Shown here piece by piece: positions 89 through 32,435 of a stretch of 32,435 bases of DNA (its first letter is position 1; each line of letters opens with the position of its first letter). The position numbers and the translations under genes were made by a program. Below the pieces are notes generated by a model. That model saw nothing but the letters and a program-made list of their open reading frames with translations, was not told the DNA's origin and did not search any database. Where the stretch lies: positions 1 to 32,435 of the forward strand of contig JAFGRM010000017.1 of the NCBI GenBank assembly GCA_016935125.1, given 5' to 3'. The DNA is from Candidatus Woesearchaeota archaeon (GTDB taxonomy: Archaea > Nanobdellota > Nanobdellia > Woesearchaeales > DSVV01).

Positions 89-244
89 ATGAGAAGACCA
101 ATATCAGCAACAATAGACGAGCGGCTTATCAGGTGGATCAACTCTGAGCTAAAGGATGGAATGAAGTACAGGAACAAGTCGCACCTGATAGAGATCGCTC
201 TCATGAACCTAAAAGAGTCTAAAGACCAAAACAATGACAACTGA
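89..244 (+). CDS. Small ribbon-helix-helix (RHH/CopG-like) DNA-binding protein, 51 aa
   Basis: Manual translation MRRPISATIDERLIRWINSELKDGMKYRNKSHLIEIALMNLKESKDQNNDN*; short N-terminal strand then two helices with the RNxSHLIExAL pattern typical of RHH proteins. Below the ORF-track size cutoff. An alternative in-frame ATG is at 68. Confidence 0.7.
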   Translation: MRRPISATIDERLIRWINSELKDGMKYRNKSHLIEIALMNLKESKDQNNDN

Positions 245-11265: not shown

Positions 11266-14200
11266 TCAGCCAAACCATTTCCCAAGACCCTCCTGTGTCT
11301 CCTTCTCTTTTCCAAAGACCTCTTCGACCCTGTTGTTCAGGAGCTGCAGCGTCTGTTTTAGGTAGACAGGAAGGTTATACTTTTCAGCAAGGCTAAGCAT
11401 TGGCTTTAGGTATTTTATCACAGAACCTTCTGCAACTGTAAATATTATCTTTCCTCCACATTTTGTGCATTTGCCTGCAAGCGGGACACGCCTGAATTTC
11501 TCGTTGCACTTGACACACCTGAACTGCTGCATTGAAAATTTCCTGAGGTTGCCTTTGGTGTCTTTCAAAAAATGCTTGTCTATCACAAAACGTGCAACCT
11601 CTGACTCATCGACTGCACGGATACGCTCAGCAAGCTTCATCTGCCCTTCCAGTTTCTCCCTCATCGAAGGCAGTGACTTATATGCAGAGCACTTGACGCC
11701 GCTGTTCGCGTTTGTTACCTCATGCGTAAACCCTATCCCCTCATATTGCCCTGGCGTATTCAGCCTCTTGTTGAGCTGCTCGACCCTGATATCCCATGGC
11801 ATCTTGTATGCGTTTGCCGCATCAAACATCTCAAGGGGATACTCATGGACAACATCCATGCCATGGACCATATCATCAACCTCTGCAGGGATTATCTTTG
11901 AAGAGAGTACCAACGGCGCATCCATAGTCTTTGCTCCGCGCGTGTCAGGAAGGTATCTCCTGGAAAAGTTCAGGAACCCATCAAGAAGAAGCATCGCCCC
12001 TGCCTCATCACCATCACAGTCACGTCTCATGGCTGCGTGGAAGAGTGGATGCGCAAAAAGACCCTGGGTCTCTGAAAACCCTATTATCCTTACTACTGTG
12101 CCTGCGGATATGTGCGGCGCAAGCCCTATCAACAGGTGGCCGATAAGATCCTCCTTGCTGTTGACATTATAATAAGGCTTTTGATTATAGTGCTTTACCA
12201 AAAGTTCATCTATGAACTGCGCAACCCTCACAAAAACCCTGTCTCCCTGCTCATCCATAGCTTCCTGTCCGCCAGGCAGTATTATATCCTGGGGCTTTAA
12301 CTCAACCACCTGTGTAGGTTCATTCAAAGGAAGCCCTTTGCAATCTTTCTTATAGCCAAGGCTGTTCAGCTTCTCGACAGAAACGCCAATCTCTTTAGGC
12401 TTGAAATGCGTCATAGGCAACTCTGTCATGTCAAAGCGCACTGTGCCGTCCTTGTTGACAAATACATCATGCTTCGCCCTAAGCACACCTTTGAAGATGT
12501 GCTCAGGGATGTGGTCCCTGTTGCTTGTCCCCCTCACTCCTTTTATAAGGTCAGGATAGCTTCTCTCTTTCAGCTCAACTATGGCCTTGCTGAAATAATG
12601 CCTGATATCAAGGTTCTGCAGCATATACGGCTTTGCAGAACCATGCACCTTGCATTCCGGCTCGTCCTGGACCTTATCACACTGCTGGCAATAGTACTGC
12701 TTTTTTGTGTTCTTCCCGCAGCTCTCGCAAACACTATAGATGGTCTGCTTTTTGCAGCTGGAGCAATAATACAAAGGGAACTCTGCCTTTATATGGCCAA
12801 GCTCAAGAGCAGACTGGAAGCTTCTCAGCCGTCCACCTTCTTCTCCCACTGGAAAAAGTACCTGTGGGCTGCCCAGCATCTTTCTCATCTTGGCTTTTTC
12901 AGGCCTGCCCATCCTTGCACCGACAAAGGTCCCTGCCTTGTCCCTTATGGTGAATCCTGCAAGGCTGTTTATGATCTCAAGGACGCCCTGCTCTGGCCGG
13001 ACATGAGATAGGAGGGATTCTATATCACTATCCCTCATATAGCCAAGGCTCGAAAGAAAAGCCTGGGCAAACTCCTTCTCTATTACGACGAATTCGTTGT
13101 TGACGACAAGATGAGGAAGCGCAATCATCTCCAGCGCTGTCTTGTTGTCGTGGAACTCTTTTGAGTATGGAAGTATAGCCTTTGTTATGCTGCTGTTGTC
13201 CCTGACAAGCTTCAGATGCCTAAGCCATGCTATAAGCCCCCTTAGATCCTCACAATCTATCTGCGTCCAAAAAAATGTGTAAACTGGGTGCAGGGGAACT
13301 GAAAGCTTTGTTGATATGTTGATCGCTGCGCGTGCTGATATCTTCGCCCTTGTGGGGTTTCTTATCAAGAGCTCAAGCTTCTCAGGATCTATGTCGATAT
13401 GCTCTGCAAGCTTTTCGCAGTCAAGCGTCCCGAAAAGATCGACTGACTTTTTCTCGAGCTCCTTTACCCACCACTCTTCTGTGTAACCGGCAGGAACAAG
13501 CATGTGGCCATTCTCAAAAAAATCACCATAATTGAAAAGTATGTCCCCAAGATAGAGTATCTTTTCCATATCAGGATGGTATCTCTTTGCATCCTTTATG
13601 GAATTGATCTCCTTTACACTGCCATCCTTAAGCCTGATAACAGGTCCGTTTATTGTATCACATGATGTCATAGAGGCTGCTTTACCTGGCCTTTCGACCT
13701 TGAGCTGGGTCCCTATCGCTATATACCTGTCCAGGAGAACCATTGTCGCTGGATTGATAGCTGCTGCTGAAAGCCCTGAAAGGCGTGACCTGCCATATCT
13801 CAGCCTGAATCCTCCTGACCGCATGGGAAAACCTAGTACAGGCCTTCCGGCGACAAGATCCTTTATGTAAGTATAATTCGGCGAGAGCTTCTCCTTTTTC
13901 CCATCTGCTTCTGCAGGCTTTGCCTTTGCCTTGACCTTTTTTTGCAGTTCCAAAAACTCGTTCAGAAATCCCCAGTCAAGCCCGAACTCCTTTCCCCATA
14001 CCTGAAGCCTCTTCCAGAGCTTAGGTGATTTCTGCGACAGCCCTTCTGCAAAGACAAGTGCCATCCCGCCCCTTATCCTGTTTGTCTCTATCCTTGGGAT
14101 GTCCTTGTAATTTGAAACCTCAAACTTCTCAGTCGGGTCGCCGCTGATCTCGACAGGGATATGCCTTGCAAGAAAATCAAGCTCCTCTTCAGATGGAAAA

Positions 14201-14832
14201 TACTGAAGGTTTGTGACCCTCTCATGGTAATCCCTTATCTCTGTCTTATACCTGTTTACCTCATCATCTGTCGCATCATACTTGCCATAACCCATGCAGG
14301 TCCCCACATAATCAGTAAGTATCAGTGAGAATGCAGCAGCGGTCCCACCTGCACCTCTTATCGGCCCTGCATAGCATGGGCAGAGGTATTCCCCCCCATC
14401 CTTCCTTTTCTTTATCTTAAGCTCGATAAATCCCTCAAGTGGTGCTGCGACTATCCCTCCTGTATGGTATGCAAACCCAGCCCTTATCCCAACTTCCATT
14501 GCCTGGTTCTTGTCTTCAAACCTGCAGAACTTCTCTTTTGCTATCTCCTCTGCAATCAACAACGCGACCCTCCAATCCATAGGAGAGTACTTCTTTTCCA
14601 ACTCCACTATACGCTTTGTCATGCCAGAACCAAGAAGGTTAGGTGCAACAGTGCCTATCAGCCCCTCTACCCTCTCTGCCATGTTCTTTGCAAGCTTTAT
14701 GTCGACTTCCTTTTCAGGATCAAGCCCCATCTTCCTTGCAGCAGTCGCTATATCAAAGCATCTCTTTATATCCTTATCTATCCCTAAGAAAAATTCAGCC
14801 ATCTCAGGGCTCTCTGTGCTGGCTTCTGGCAT
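11266..14832 (-). CDS. polC: DNA polymerase II (family D) large subunit DP2
   Basis: 1188 aa; HAAMRRDCDGDEAGAMLLLDGFLNFSRRYLPDTRGAKTMDAPL, RFRLRYGRSRLSGL-type motif (GGFRLRYGRSRLSGL), Zn-finger motifs; no obvious intein-sized insertion. Confidence 0.98.
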   Translation of the reverse strand: MPEASTESPEMAEFFLGIDKDIKRCFDIATAARKMGLDPEKEVDIKLAKNMAERVEGLIGTVAPNLLGSGMTKRIVELEKKYSPMDWRVALLIAEEIAKEKFCRFEDKNQAMEVGIRAGFAYHTGGIVAAPLEGFIELKIKKRKDGGEYLCPCYAGPIRGAGGTAAAFSLILTDYVGTCMGYGKYDATDDEVNRYKTEIRDYHERVTNLQYFPSEEELDFLARHIPVEISGDPTEKFEVSNYKDIPRIETNRIRGGMALVFAEGLSQKSPKLWKRLQVWGKEFGLDWGFLNEFLELQKKVKAKAKPAEADGKKEKLSPNYTYIKDLVAGRPVLGFPMRSGGFRLRYGRSRLSGLSAAAINPATMVLLDRYIAIGTQLKVERPGKAASMTSCDTINGPVIRLKDGSVKEINSIKDAKRYHPDMEKILYLGDILFNYGDFFENGHMLVPAGYTEEWWVKELEKKSVDLFGTLDCEKLAEHIDIDPEKLELLIRNPTRAKISARAAINISTKLSVPLHPVYTFFWTQIDCEDLRGLIAWLRHLKLVRDNSSITKAILPYSKEFHDNKTALEMIALPHLVVNNEFVVIEKEFAQAFLSSLGYMRDSDIESLLSHVRPEQGVLEIINSLAGFTIRDKAGTFVGARMGRPEKAKMRKMLGSPQVLFPVGEEGGRLRSFQSALELGHIKAEFPLYYCSSCKKQTIYSVCESCGKNTKKQYYCQQCDKVQDEPECKVHGSAKPYMLQNLDIRHYFSKAIVELKERSYPDLIKGVRGTSNRDHIPEHIFKGVLRAKHDVFVNKDGTVRFDMTELPMTHFKPKEIGVSVEKLNSLGYKKDCKGLPLNEPTQVVELKPQDIILPGGQEAMDEQGDRVFVRVAQFIDELLVKHYNQKPYYNVNSKEDLIGHLLIGLAPHISAGTVVRIIGFSETQGLFAHPLFHAAMRRDCDGDEAGAMLLLDGFLNFSRRYLPDTRGAKTMDAPLVLSSKIIPAEVDDMVHGMDVVHEYPLEMFDAANAYKMPWDIRVEQLNKRLNTPGQYEGIGFTHEVTNANSGVKCSAYKSLPSMREKLEGQMKLAERIRAVDESEVARFVIDKHFLKDTKGNLRKFSMQQFRCVKCNEKFRRVPLAGKCTKCGGKIIFTVAEGSVIKYLKPMLSLAEKYNLPVYLKQTLQLLNNRVEEVFGKEKETQEGLGKWFG

Positions 14833-14995: not shown

Positions 14996-16642
14996 CTAAA
15001 ACCTTAGTATCTTTGTCTCCCTTGTCTGCAGGTTTACGATAGGAACCCTTGCCGGCTCAGGGTGATGCCCCATCTTAAGCTGGAAGCTTGTCGTGGACTG
15101 CCAGCATGAGCCGCATATGAGCGACACACCCCTGTAGCTCGATACAGCAACCTTGTGGATGTGCCCTGAAACAAAAAAGTCAGGCACCCTGCCTATCACC
15201 AACGGATCAAACTCTGTGTCTGGCTCGTGTAGTGTAGAGTTGTTGCTCGGAGCAAGATGCCTTCTTTGGAGCAGGAACTTCATTATTAGGTCGGCCCTGT
15301 CATACCCGCCGCTGTTCCTTATCGAATCCACATTGGCAACATAATAATCAAAACTATATCCATGATACAGCAACACATCAAAACCAGGAAAATCCTCTGT
15401 TGCAGCGATGTTCACAATAGATGGGTTGCTGAGCATGGTAAGGTTGGGTATCTCAAGCAATGGCCTGATAAAGTCCCTTGACAACGGCAGCTGCGGCTCA
15501 GAAAGCCTTGAGCCATCATGGTTTCCTGCACAGACAATTATCTGTATGTCTTTTGGTATCCTTGAAAGAAGCTTTGCGCAAACCTCATACTGCTCATATA
15601 TATCTTTTATCAAAAGCTCAGACTCCTGACCTGGATATATGCCTACCCCATCCACAAGATCGCCTGCTATAAAGATGTACTTGATCTTTTTTATGATCTC
15701 AAGCTGCGCAGGGCTCCCTATCTCGCCGTTGATCCATTTCAGGAATTTCTCAAACTCGCTCTTCAGGAAAGTGTCAGAGCCGATATGGAGGTCAGAAAGG
15801 AAGAGCGCATATATCTCATCAGGGCATTTCTTAAGCTCTTTGTGTGCAGGGATCTCAGGAAGGACAATCTTGCTGCAGTATACTATACCATCACCACTCA
15901 CACCAGTTACACCGATGACCTCATCAACCACAATATCCTTTGCCAACTCTATCATATCCTGCTTGGACTTGCTGACCATGACCTTGATCTCAGATGTGGG
16001 ATCCTCAAGAGCCATTATGACATGGCCTTTTGGCGTTATTGTCTTTTCCTTGACAAGCCCTATAAGAGAGACATTCTCCCTTTCCCTTTTGGCCAGGATT
16101 CTTGCTGCTGATGTCAAGCCCGACAATTCCTGCCTTGAGCTCAACATGCTTTCGATCGCCTTGTACCTGGCATTGTAGTACTTGACAAAATCCTGGATGG
16201 TCTTCTTTTGCGCTATCTTGTCGTAGTTGAACAATACCTTGACACCTGCCCTGTCATTGCCAATATCACCTGTTGTCTTTGTATCGCCAGTTGCTTTATC
16301 TCCTTCTAAGCCCGGTCTTTCAACTGCAGCTAACGAGCTAATCGAGCTTCTGTATGGCTTGCTGTCTTTCTTCTTTTCCTCTATCACCTTGAACCTTTCG
16401 ATATCCTTCCAGTTCAGATGCCCAGGCTTTCCCTGCATTATCCTTATGAAATCCTTGTTTAAAACAGCAGGCGCAGTGTTTGCTGAAAGGTCGCTGTCTT
16501 CCTGCTCAAGAAATTCCCTTATTTTGGCTAACCCTTCTTCTTCCTTAAATATGTCCGGGCTTGGGAGTATTCCCCTTCCCAGCATATCAGCTATCAGCCT
16601 TTTTTTGAGTTCTGTTCCACTTATTGTTGCTACAGTCTGCAT
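14996..16642 (-). CDS. polB: DNA polymerase II (family D) small subunit DP1 (calcineurin-like phosphoesterase exonuclease)
   Basis: OB fold plus metallophosphoesterase motifs LFLSDLHIGS, FIAGDLVDGVG, CAGNHDG, LLYHGYSFD, VSGHIHK. Confidence 0.97.
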   Translation of the reverse strand: MQTVATISGTELKKRLIADMLGRGILPSPDIFKEEEGLAKIREFLEQEDSDLSANTAPAVLNKDFIRIMQGKPGHLNWKDIERFKVIEEKKKDSKPYRSSISSLAAVERPGLEGDKATGDTKTTGDIGNDRAGVKVLFNYDKIAQKKTIQDFVKYYNARYKAIESMLSSRQELSGLTSAARILAKRERENVSLIGLVKEKTITPKGHVIMALEDPTSEIKVMVSKSKQDMIELAKDIVVDEVIGVTGVSGDGIVYCSKIVLPEIPAHKELKKCPDEIYALFLSDLHIGSDTFLKSEFEKFLKWINGEIGSPAQLEIIKKIKYIFIAGDLVDGVGIYPGQESELLIKDIYEQYEVCAKLLSRIPKDIQIIVCAGNHDGSRLSEPQLPLSRDFIRPLLEIPNLTMLSNPSIVNIAATEDFPGFDVLLYHGYSFDYYVANVDSIRNSGGYDRADLIMKFLLQRRHLAPSNNSTLHEPDTEFDPLVIGRVPDFFVSGHIHKVAVSSYRGVSLICGSCWQSTTSFQLKMGHHPEPARVPIVNLQTRETKILRF

Positions 16643-18135: not shown

Positions 18136-18139
18136 TTGG

Positions 18140-18161
18140 TTTCCAGTGGAAATAAGGGTTT
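18140..18161 (+). promoter_or_regulatory. Origin recognition box (ORB) motif
   Basis: TTTCCAGTGGAAATAAGGGTTT, closely matching the archaeal ORB dyad (TTCCAnTGGAAA) with 3' G-rich tail. Confidence 0.8.
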
Positions 18162-18193
18162 ATAAAACTTTTTATCTGGGCCTTATAATAAGA

Positions 18194-18212
18194 CCTTTGT
18201 TTCATGTGGAAT
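18194..18212 (-). promoter_or_regulatory. ORB-like motif, opposite orientation
   Basis: Reverse complement TATTCCACATGAAACAAAG(G): TTCCA...GAAA core plus the AAnAAGG-like tail. Confidence 0.55.
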
Positions 18213-18248
18213 ATATAAATAATGTATACTTAAACATATATCTTTTCA

Positions 18249-18260
18249 TTCCAAAGGAAA
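18249..18260. promoter_or_regulatory. Mini-ORB-like dyad
   Basis: TTCCAAAGGAAA; a further TTTCCAAAAGAAA follows at 18265. Confidence 0.45.
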
Positions 18261-18439
18261 AATATTTCCAAAAGAAAATTACCCTTACGAAATCTGATAA
18301 ATCCCTTATAGATTACCCGCAGGAAGCGACAGCCCACAAGAAGGCCATACCAAGCAAAACTGAGCAAGAAACCTGTATCTGTTGATATGCCACAGTTTGG
18401 CACATCTTAACACAGTTTCCCTTTTGTGGAACAAAAAGT

Positions 18440-18494
18440 AAACTTGCTTACCTGCTTCCTGCTTTCCTGCTTTCTTGCTTACTTGCTTGCCCAC
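18440..18494. repeat. Imperfect 8-bp tandem repeat (TGCTTNCN-like)
   Basis: acttgctt acctgctt cctgcttt cctgcttt cttgctta cttgcttg; within the origin-proximal intergenic region. Confidence 0.8.
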
Positions 18495-18711
18495 TTAGCT
18501 GCATGGCTGATTAGGACAGGTTGTGTTGTGCTGCGCTGTCGCTGGGATGACTGTTATAGAACCACTGTTGCATACTAACATAAGTTTATTATATGCAGAA
18601 CACTATTGTCTTATGTTATAGTGTCTATAGTGATATATAAGTAAAAGATAAGCTGTATAAGAGATACCATAAGGATTGCCATATTGCCTATGCTGTTAAC
18701 AGAAGAACAAC

Positions 18712-19185
18712 ATGGAAGGTATTGCTATGAACGACCTACTCGATGAAACAACAGAGGTTCATGCCAGGAAAATGCAGGACAAAAAAGACAATGAAAAAGC
18801 AGCTGGCATGCTAAACGATGAGATCGTCGCTGCGATCAGGGAAACCTCAAGGAGGCTTAGGGTGCTTGAGGAGAGATACTCTGGTGTCAGGAAAAACATC
18901 CAGCTAAACGAGCAGAACATGCTTTCTGAAAGCAAGAAAAACGCCACTGAGATAAAGACGATAAATGTCGACATGGTTGAGATCAAAAAGAGCATCAGGT
19001 CAATCGGCGAAGAGCTTAAGCAGATAATAAAGGAGCTTAAGCTAACCGTAAAAAAAGAGGAGTTCAAGGTCATGGAAAGGTACCTTAACCTTTGGCAGCC
19101 CATGGATTATGTGTCTCACACAGAGATGGAGAACAGGATAAAGGATATTGTCAAGCAGGAGCTCACAAAAAAAGGCATACAGTAA
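18712..19185 (+). CDS. Coiled-coil hypothetical protein
   Basis: 157 aa, mostly heptad-like charged helix; internal ATG at 18727 preceded by GGAAGGT is an alternative start. Confidence 0.75.
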   Translation: MEGIAMNDLLDETTEVHARKMQDKKDNEKAAGMLNDEIVAAIRETSRRLRVLEERYSGVRKNIQLNEQNMLSESKKNATEIKTINVDMVEIKKSIRSIGEELKQIIKELKLTVKKEEFKVMERYLNLWQPMDYVSHTEMENRIKDIVKQELTKKGIQ

Positions 19186-32077: not shown

Positions 32078-32177
32078 TCCTTGAACCCAAAAGCAGAAAA
32101 CCCCACCCTATTAAAAATATTATGCAAAAAGCAGAAAAACAACTTATCTACATATTAATAACCTCCTGCCTATGTGA

Positions 32178-32199
32178 CCCCCTTATTTCATGTGGAAAA
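32178..32199 (-). promoter_or_regulatory. Distal ORB-like motif
   Basis: Reverse complement TTTTCCACATGAAATAAGGGGG; TTTCCACATGAAATAAGGG is 16/19 identical to TTTCCAGTGGAAATAAGGG at 18140. Confidence 0.45.
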
Positions 32200-32435
32200 A
32201 TTTATTGGTTTGTGTGCTTTGTGGTTGTTTGTAAGAAAAAACATGCAACAACACAATCCAAAACAAAACAAACACTGAAAAGATGCAAGGCTTATAGTAT
32301 ACTTTTTTCTACCATTTTCTTGTGTTTTTGGCAAATATGTTTTGTTATCAATCATCTAATTGTTGGTTGATTGTTGGTTAATCGTTAGATAGTCATTAGA
32401 TAGTCATTGGTTAATTGTTTGTTGTTACATTTACT

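Follow-up and report, generated by a model that had tools for sequence, protein, structure and literature searches.

Two origin recognition boxes upstream of cdc6 probably mark an origin region and operon promoter in a Woesearchaeal archaeon

Does the gap upstream of cdc6 in the genome of an uncultured Woesearchaeal DPANN archaeon contain the replication origin, as had been predicted from five motifs resembling origin recognition boxes? The window, i.e., the whole stretch of DNA that was analysed, comprises 32,435 nucleotides. The gap (18136-18711) lies beside three genes that were identified by profile matches as cdc6 and the genes for the two subunits of DNA polymerase D, in agreement with the original prediction, and DP1 is located downstream of cdc6 on the same strand (Table 1). 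The best solved relative of the Cdc6 protein is S. solfataricus Cdc6-1 (2qby_A, E 2.3e-97); its winged-helix stretch is free of gaps in the alignment and aligns with DNA-binding Orc1-1 structures. By profiles and by the alignment with its structural relative, the adjacent gene is of the initiator (Orc1-1) type that is found at oriC1-type origins. The closest named cdc6 genes are those of Woesearchaeota (59-67% identity), and the relatives in the whole-genome collection belong to a single order with some 50 families. The comparison with Thermococcales that had been drawn therefore holds for the gene order, but not for the lineage. A described origin for Woesearchaeota was not found in the open-access literature that was searched; a skew pattern has been reported for DPANN archaea (PMC7111523). 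To the right of the gap lies an open reading frame of 157 amino acids without a Pfam match (18712-19185, plus strand), which has a coiled-coil look by eye.

Table 1. Genes, boxes and related elements of the locus and the distal boxes; positions refer to the window unless a contig is named.
Feature	Position	Strand	Evidence
PolD large subunit DP2	11266..14832	-	NF003103 and TIGR00354, both over cut-offs
PolD small subunit DP1	14996..16642	-	NF003118 (E 5.5e-129, score just under the equivalog cut-off), Metallophos, DNA_pol_E_B
orc1/cdc6 initiator gene, 409 aa	16906..18135	-	NF001625 over cut-off, TIGR02928, Cdc6_C, Cdc6_lid
ORB-A, TTTCCAGTGGAAATAAGGG, dyad plus G-string	18136..18165	+	22.4 bits, motif built without the own genome
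TATA-like box of cdc6, TTTTATAAA	18159..18167	-	sequence; putative promoter element
ORB-B, TTCCACATGAAACAAAGG	18187..18216	-	22.9 bits
Dyad without G-string, TTCCAAAGGAAA	18249..18260		full score -3.2, dyad part 14.6
Dyad without G-string, TTCCAAAAGAAA	18266..18277		full score 1.6, dyad part 14.9
Strongest window ORB, TTCCACATGAAATAAGGGGGTCACA	32173..32202	-	29.8 bits, exact match to the long ORB pattern
Strong ORB on contig C56 (L225)	154-183	+	28.9 bits

The element that recurs upstream of cdc6 in the relatives, TTCCAnnnGAAAnnAAGGGGT, consists of a dyad and a following G-string, and a full origin recognition box (ORB) is defined by the presence of both. A motif of 30 positions was built from 96 non-redundant relatives, with the own genome and the complete genomes of two relatives, G020 and G060, held out. 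The motif was seeded with the dyad core that had also been used for the prediction, so that independent evidence comes from the G-string, the orientation and the place, but not from the dyad part. In the own genome 94 kb were scanned with the weight matrix, and the remainder was searched by pattern only. Of the sites in 4 Mb of Markov sequence generated by simulation, about one per Mb exceeded 17 bits and none exceeded 20 bits. The window contains three sites above 20 bits, namely ORB-A and ORB-B next to cdc6 and a distal box at 32173.

All motif strings quoted in the prediction are present in the sequence where it had placed them, but only the two at 18141 (+) and 18211 (-) belong to ORBs. 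These are ORB-A and ORB-B, and the gap therefore contains at least two full ORBs in inverted orientation, which converge and have centres 59 bp apart. The strings at 18249 and 18266, the second of which is an 88% repeat of the first, were rejected as ORBs, because the G-string is missing and the full scores with the family motif are low (Table 1). The string at 18416 was likewise rejected, with a family-motif score of -15.3. A motif scan of 18220-18711 revealed no third box (ORB-C). The dyad cluster is enriched, with four distinct TTCCAnnnGAAA dyads in 138 bp compared to 0.004 expected from a Markov model of local composition; none of 3000 simulations gave four. In contrast, the bare dyad is not enriched genome-wide (23 strand-wise matches in 1.257 Mb, versus 24 for the reversed control). 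The density of full boxes favours the locus: at up to one mismatch the long ORB pattern has four matches in the whole genome and none in the control. The four are the three window sites and a site on contig C56 (position 159), so that two of them lie beside cdc6.

The gap had also been described as AT-rich, which is true for 18136-18300 (73% AT), but not for 18300-18560 (54%, compared to 56% for the window). The AT-rich stretch between ORB-A and ORB-B is short and contains the TATA box, and the longer one at 18212-18300 (79% AT) lacks a box at its far end. The region 18150-18300 is within the most easily melted 1% of the window; for several other stretches melting is easier still. A degenerate 8-bp tandem repeat (CTTGCTTACCTGCTTTC...) is present at 18443-18496 of the gap.

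The arrangement of the boxes was compared in 77 non-redundant cdc6 upstream regions of at least 450 bp, the own region included, and none of them is without an ORB. A(+) B(-) C(+) is the most frequent layout; the counts are 29 for + - +, 15 for - +, 13 for - - +, and nine for + -, the own region included. Of the 39 regions that open with A(+) B(-), 21 have an A-B spacing of 53-62 bp, and the ORB-B described here is among the weakest of the 39. An ORB-C is located past ORB-B in 62 of the 77 regions, usually 104-381 bp beyond, and in most relatives the divergent B and C boxes flank AT-rich DNA. In two members of the family, G003 and G008, the boxes beside cdc6 are A and B alone, and the pattern has no additional match with up to one mismatch allowed; the absence of ORB-C is therefore tolerated. 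ORB-A is the first box in the relatives, just ahead of the cdc6 start codon. In the window it lies between the start codon and the TATA-like box, which is 24-32 bp ahead of the ATG and fused to the G-string of ORB-A, and the relatives have ORB-A in the same place. For 50 of 51 ORB-A sites the G-string has a TATA-like box no more than 25 bp away, in comparison to 24% of control stretches.

The own genome consists of 102 contigs, and the turning points of the skew were judged in the two complete relatives. Within the window the skew is lowest near 22 kb and not sharply at 18 kb; local GC skew was rejected as proof of an origin, because it is confounded by gene direction. In both complete relatives, whose sequences had no part in building the motif, the best-scoring site of the genome is at most 0.45 kb upstream of cdc6, i.e., 79-108 bp before cdc6 for G020 (best in 1.3 Mb) and 0.4 kb before it for G060. 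The detrended GC-skew minimum of G020 (1,301,350 bp) is at 760,921, only 3,270 bp from the cdc6 start, the maximum is 0.54 of the circle away from the minimum, and the amplitude was unmatched in 5000 block shuffles; the purine skew does not point to cdc6. For G060 (736,702 bp) the purine skew reaches its minimum 391 bp before cdc6, the GC skew 51 kb from it. Because several skew measures were examined, the skew of G020 was counted as support and that of G060 as weak support.

Taken together, the conservation of the boxes, the link to the TATA-like box, and the skew in the relatives indicate that the locus is most likely an origin region combined with an autoregulated cdc6-polD promoter. The predicted origin beside cdc6 is thus favoured by the conservation, by the GC skew of G020 and, less strongly, by the mixed skew of G060, but three of the five motifs are lost. 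The cdc6-linked region is probably genuine, with two boxes instead of five, and we consider it rather probable that 18136-18300 is the part of a cdc6-linked chromosomal origin to which Orc1/Cdc6 binds, and that this stretch doubles as the promoter of the cdc6-DP1-DP2 operon. The protein would bind to ORB-A and ORB-B, which face one another, and the bound initiator would be expected to load MCM on nearby AT-rich DNA and thereby to start replication. Because ORB-A has the TATA box on one side and the start codon on the other, bound Cdc6 would also be expected to repress its own operon.

In relatives, boxes are also found ahead of tbp and mcm. An ORB with at most one mismatch is present within about 0.4 kb upstream of tbp in 21 of 55 genomes with a tbp match, a count made by eye from coordinates without a script. 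The gene that follows tbp is mcm in most relatives whose sequence was read, and G016 has three boxes immediately ahead of mcm. The tbp gene of the own genome (contig C5) has no ORB upstream. Given the ORB fused to the promoter and the boxes ahead of tbp-mcm, the initiator may also control replication genes. In addition, the relatives contain an AT-rich palindrome, TTTTCWATATWGAAA (also given as TTTTCTATATAGAAAA), in 32 of 99 cdc6 upstream regions, compared to one for the reversed control, and 18 of about 96 distinct sites in 60 genomes are within 1 kb upstream of cdc6 (by eye). In compact origins it is found about midway between ORB-B and ORB-C, and the centre of the dyad at 18249, 49 bp from ORB-B, is approximately at that site. 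The palindrome itself is absent from the cdc6 gap described here, and its sole copy in the own genome is on contig C21 (position 3856, L179); the AT-rich DNA between the boxes contains no second motif of the ucm/UBP type. In relatives the palindrome also occurs at a few other intergenic places. Tentatively, the Woesearchaeal Orc1/Cdc6 might be both an initiator and the regulator of a small regulon, with ORBs at the cdc6-polD promoter and, in many relatives, before tbp-mcm; TTTTCWATATWGAAA might be a second origin element midway between divergent ORBs, read by a protein as UBP reads ucm in Sulfolobus.

The observations that count against an origin next to cdc6 include the missing ORB-C, the weak ORB-B, the location of the strongest ORB 14 kb away, the more easily melted stretches elsewhere in the window, the skew measures that do not point to cdc6, and the precedent of T. 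kodakarensis. Where the origin core lies in the own genome is uncertain, and it may have moved. The strongest box, which had been overlooked in the original prediction, alone in the genome matches the long pattern exactly; it lies in non-coding DNA past tRNA-Ser, 233 bp from the contig end, and the DNA to the right of 32203 has 70% AT. The start of contig C56 has a 9-bp tandem repeat, which the C56 box follows directly, and a gene for a family B DNA polymerase lies 255 bp beyond the box. These two boxes are the strongest sites of the genome, both are about 260 bp or less from contig ends, and a join of the ends would make them a divergent pair. The origin core, i.e., an AT-rich unwinding region flanked by ORB-B and ORB-C in divergent orientation, could therefore have moved by about 14 kb to 32173-32435 and could continue on C56, and the pair beside cdc6 would then mainly be the autoregulatory site of the promoter. 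In line with such a shift, the surroundings of polB in 19 relatives contain no ORB that exceeds 14 bits, and a conserved polB element is thus not supported as a reading of the C56 box. However, the join is unsupported: the right end of the window contig (C44) and the start of C56 have no overlap and no common 13-mer, the contig end matches no other place in the genome, and pyrD and polB are not neighbours in the relatives. Moreover, G003 and G008 likewise have only A and B beside cdc6, and a displaced core is in our opinion rather unlikely. A second cdc6-like gene (C16) was rejected as another origin, as no ORB match nearby exceeds 4.6 bits.

With the origin staying beside cdc6, the distal boxes (32173, C56, and those before tbp-mcm in relatives) might titrate the initiator. 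Negative control by a separate ORB-rich region has been reported for Haloarcula hispanica, in which the region downstream of oriC2 was proposed to titrate the initiator (PMC3936714), and many relatives have strong solitary or tandem ORBs distant from cdc6. However, the own genome has just one strong box per place, and the distal boxes of the relatives are mostly ahead of tbp-mcm, which points to transcription control rather than to titration and makes the latter unlikely. Control of cdc6-polD transcription only, with replication starting elsewhere or by recombination, is improbable, although ORB-A is placed on the core promoter, the ORBs upstream of tbp need not be origins, and T. kodakarensis retains cdc6 and ORBs but can do without them (PMC5663688), because the GC skew of G020 turns within 3.3 kb of cdc6 with an amplitude beyond the shuffles, and a promoter needs no divergent B and C boxes round AT-rich DNA, as most relatives have.

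The preferred reading, a combined origin region and promoter, has parallels in other archaea. In Sulfolobus oriC1 the orc1-1 gene is followed by ORB2, an AT-rich DUE with the ucm, and ORB3; the ucm has 11 bp and is bound by UBP (PMC12141716). As in the window, ORBs with dyad and G-string adjoin the orc1 gene and an inverted ORB pair is found around AT-rich DNA, of which the pair in the window encloses only a short stretch, and the short second motif amid the AT-rich DNA of the relatives resembles the ucm. The latter likeness is one of place, with no tested relation in sequence, and does not extend to the window locus, which lacks the palindrome. The Woesearchaeal locus differs in that the polymerase D operon follows, an ORB is fused to the promoter, and the third box is absent. 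Thermococcales (Pyrococcus; T. kodakarensis TK1901-1903, PMC5663688) share a cdc6-DP1-DP2 operon that is preceded by ORBs and smaller boxes; however, they are another lineage, the arrangement is dispensable in T. kodakarensis, and the strong distal box of the window has no stated counterpart. Haloarchaeal oriC1 (PMC3936714, PMC4010727) likewise has inverted ORBs with G-strings beside cdc6 and an extra inverted repeat between the boxes, which is G-rich, in contrast to the AT-rich repeat of the Woesearchaeal relatives. With a motif that scores in almost all upstream regions of cdc6 in the order, origins could be placed in fragmented DPANN genomes, and growth rates could be derived from metagenome coverage.

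Tandem ORBs upstream of tbp-mcm or mcm were seen in several relatives (L226:4352-4634, L227:3407-3680, L229:4869-5076, L236:7645-7758), and the three of L229 are near a small gene pair that includes a PIN-domain protein. Beside distal ORBs of other relatives, unnamed proteins without a Pfam match are encoded (L244:3748-4287, L235:4840-5511, L233:4451-4918), some of which have a common KVKED-like stretch.
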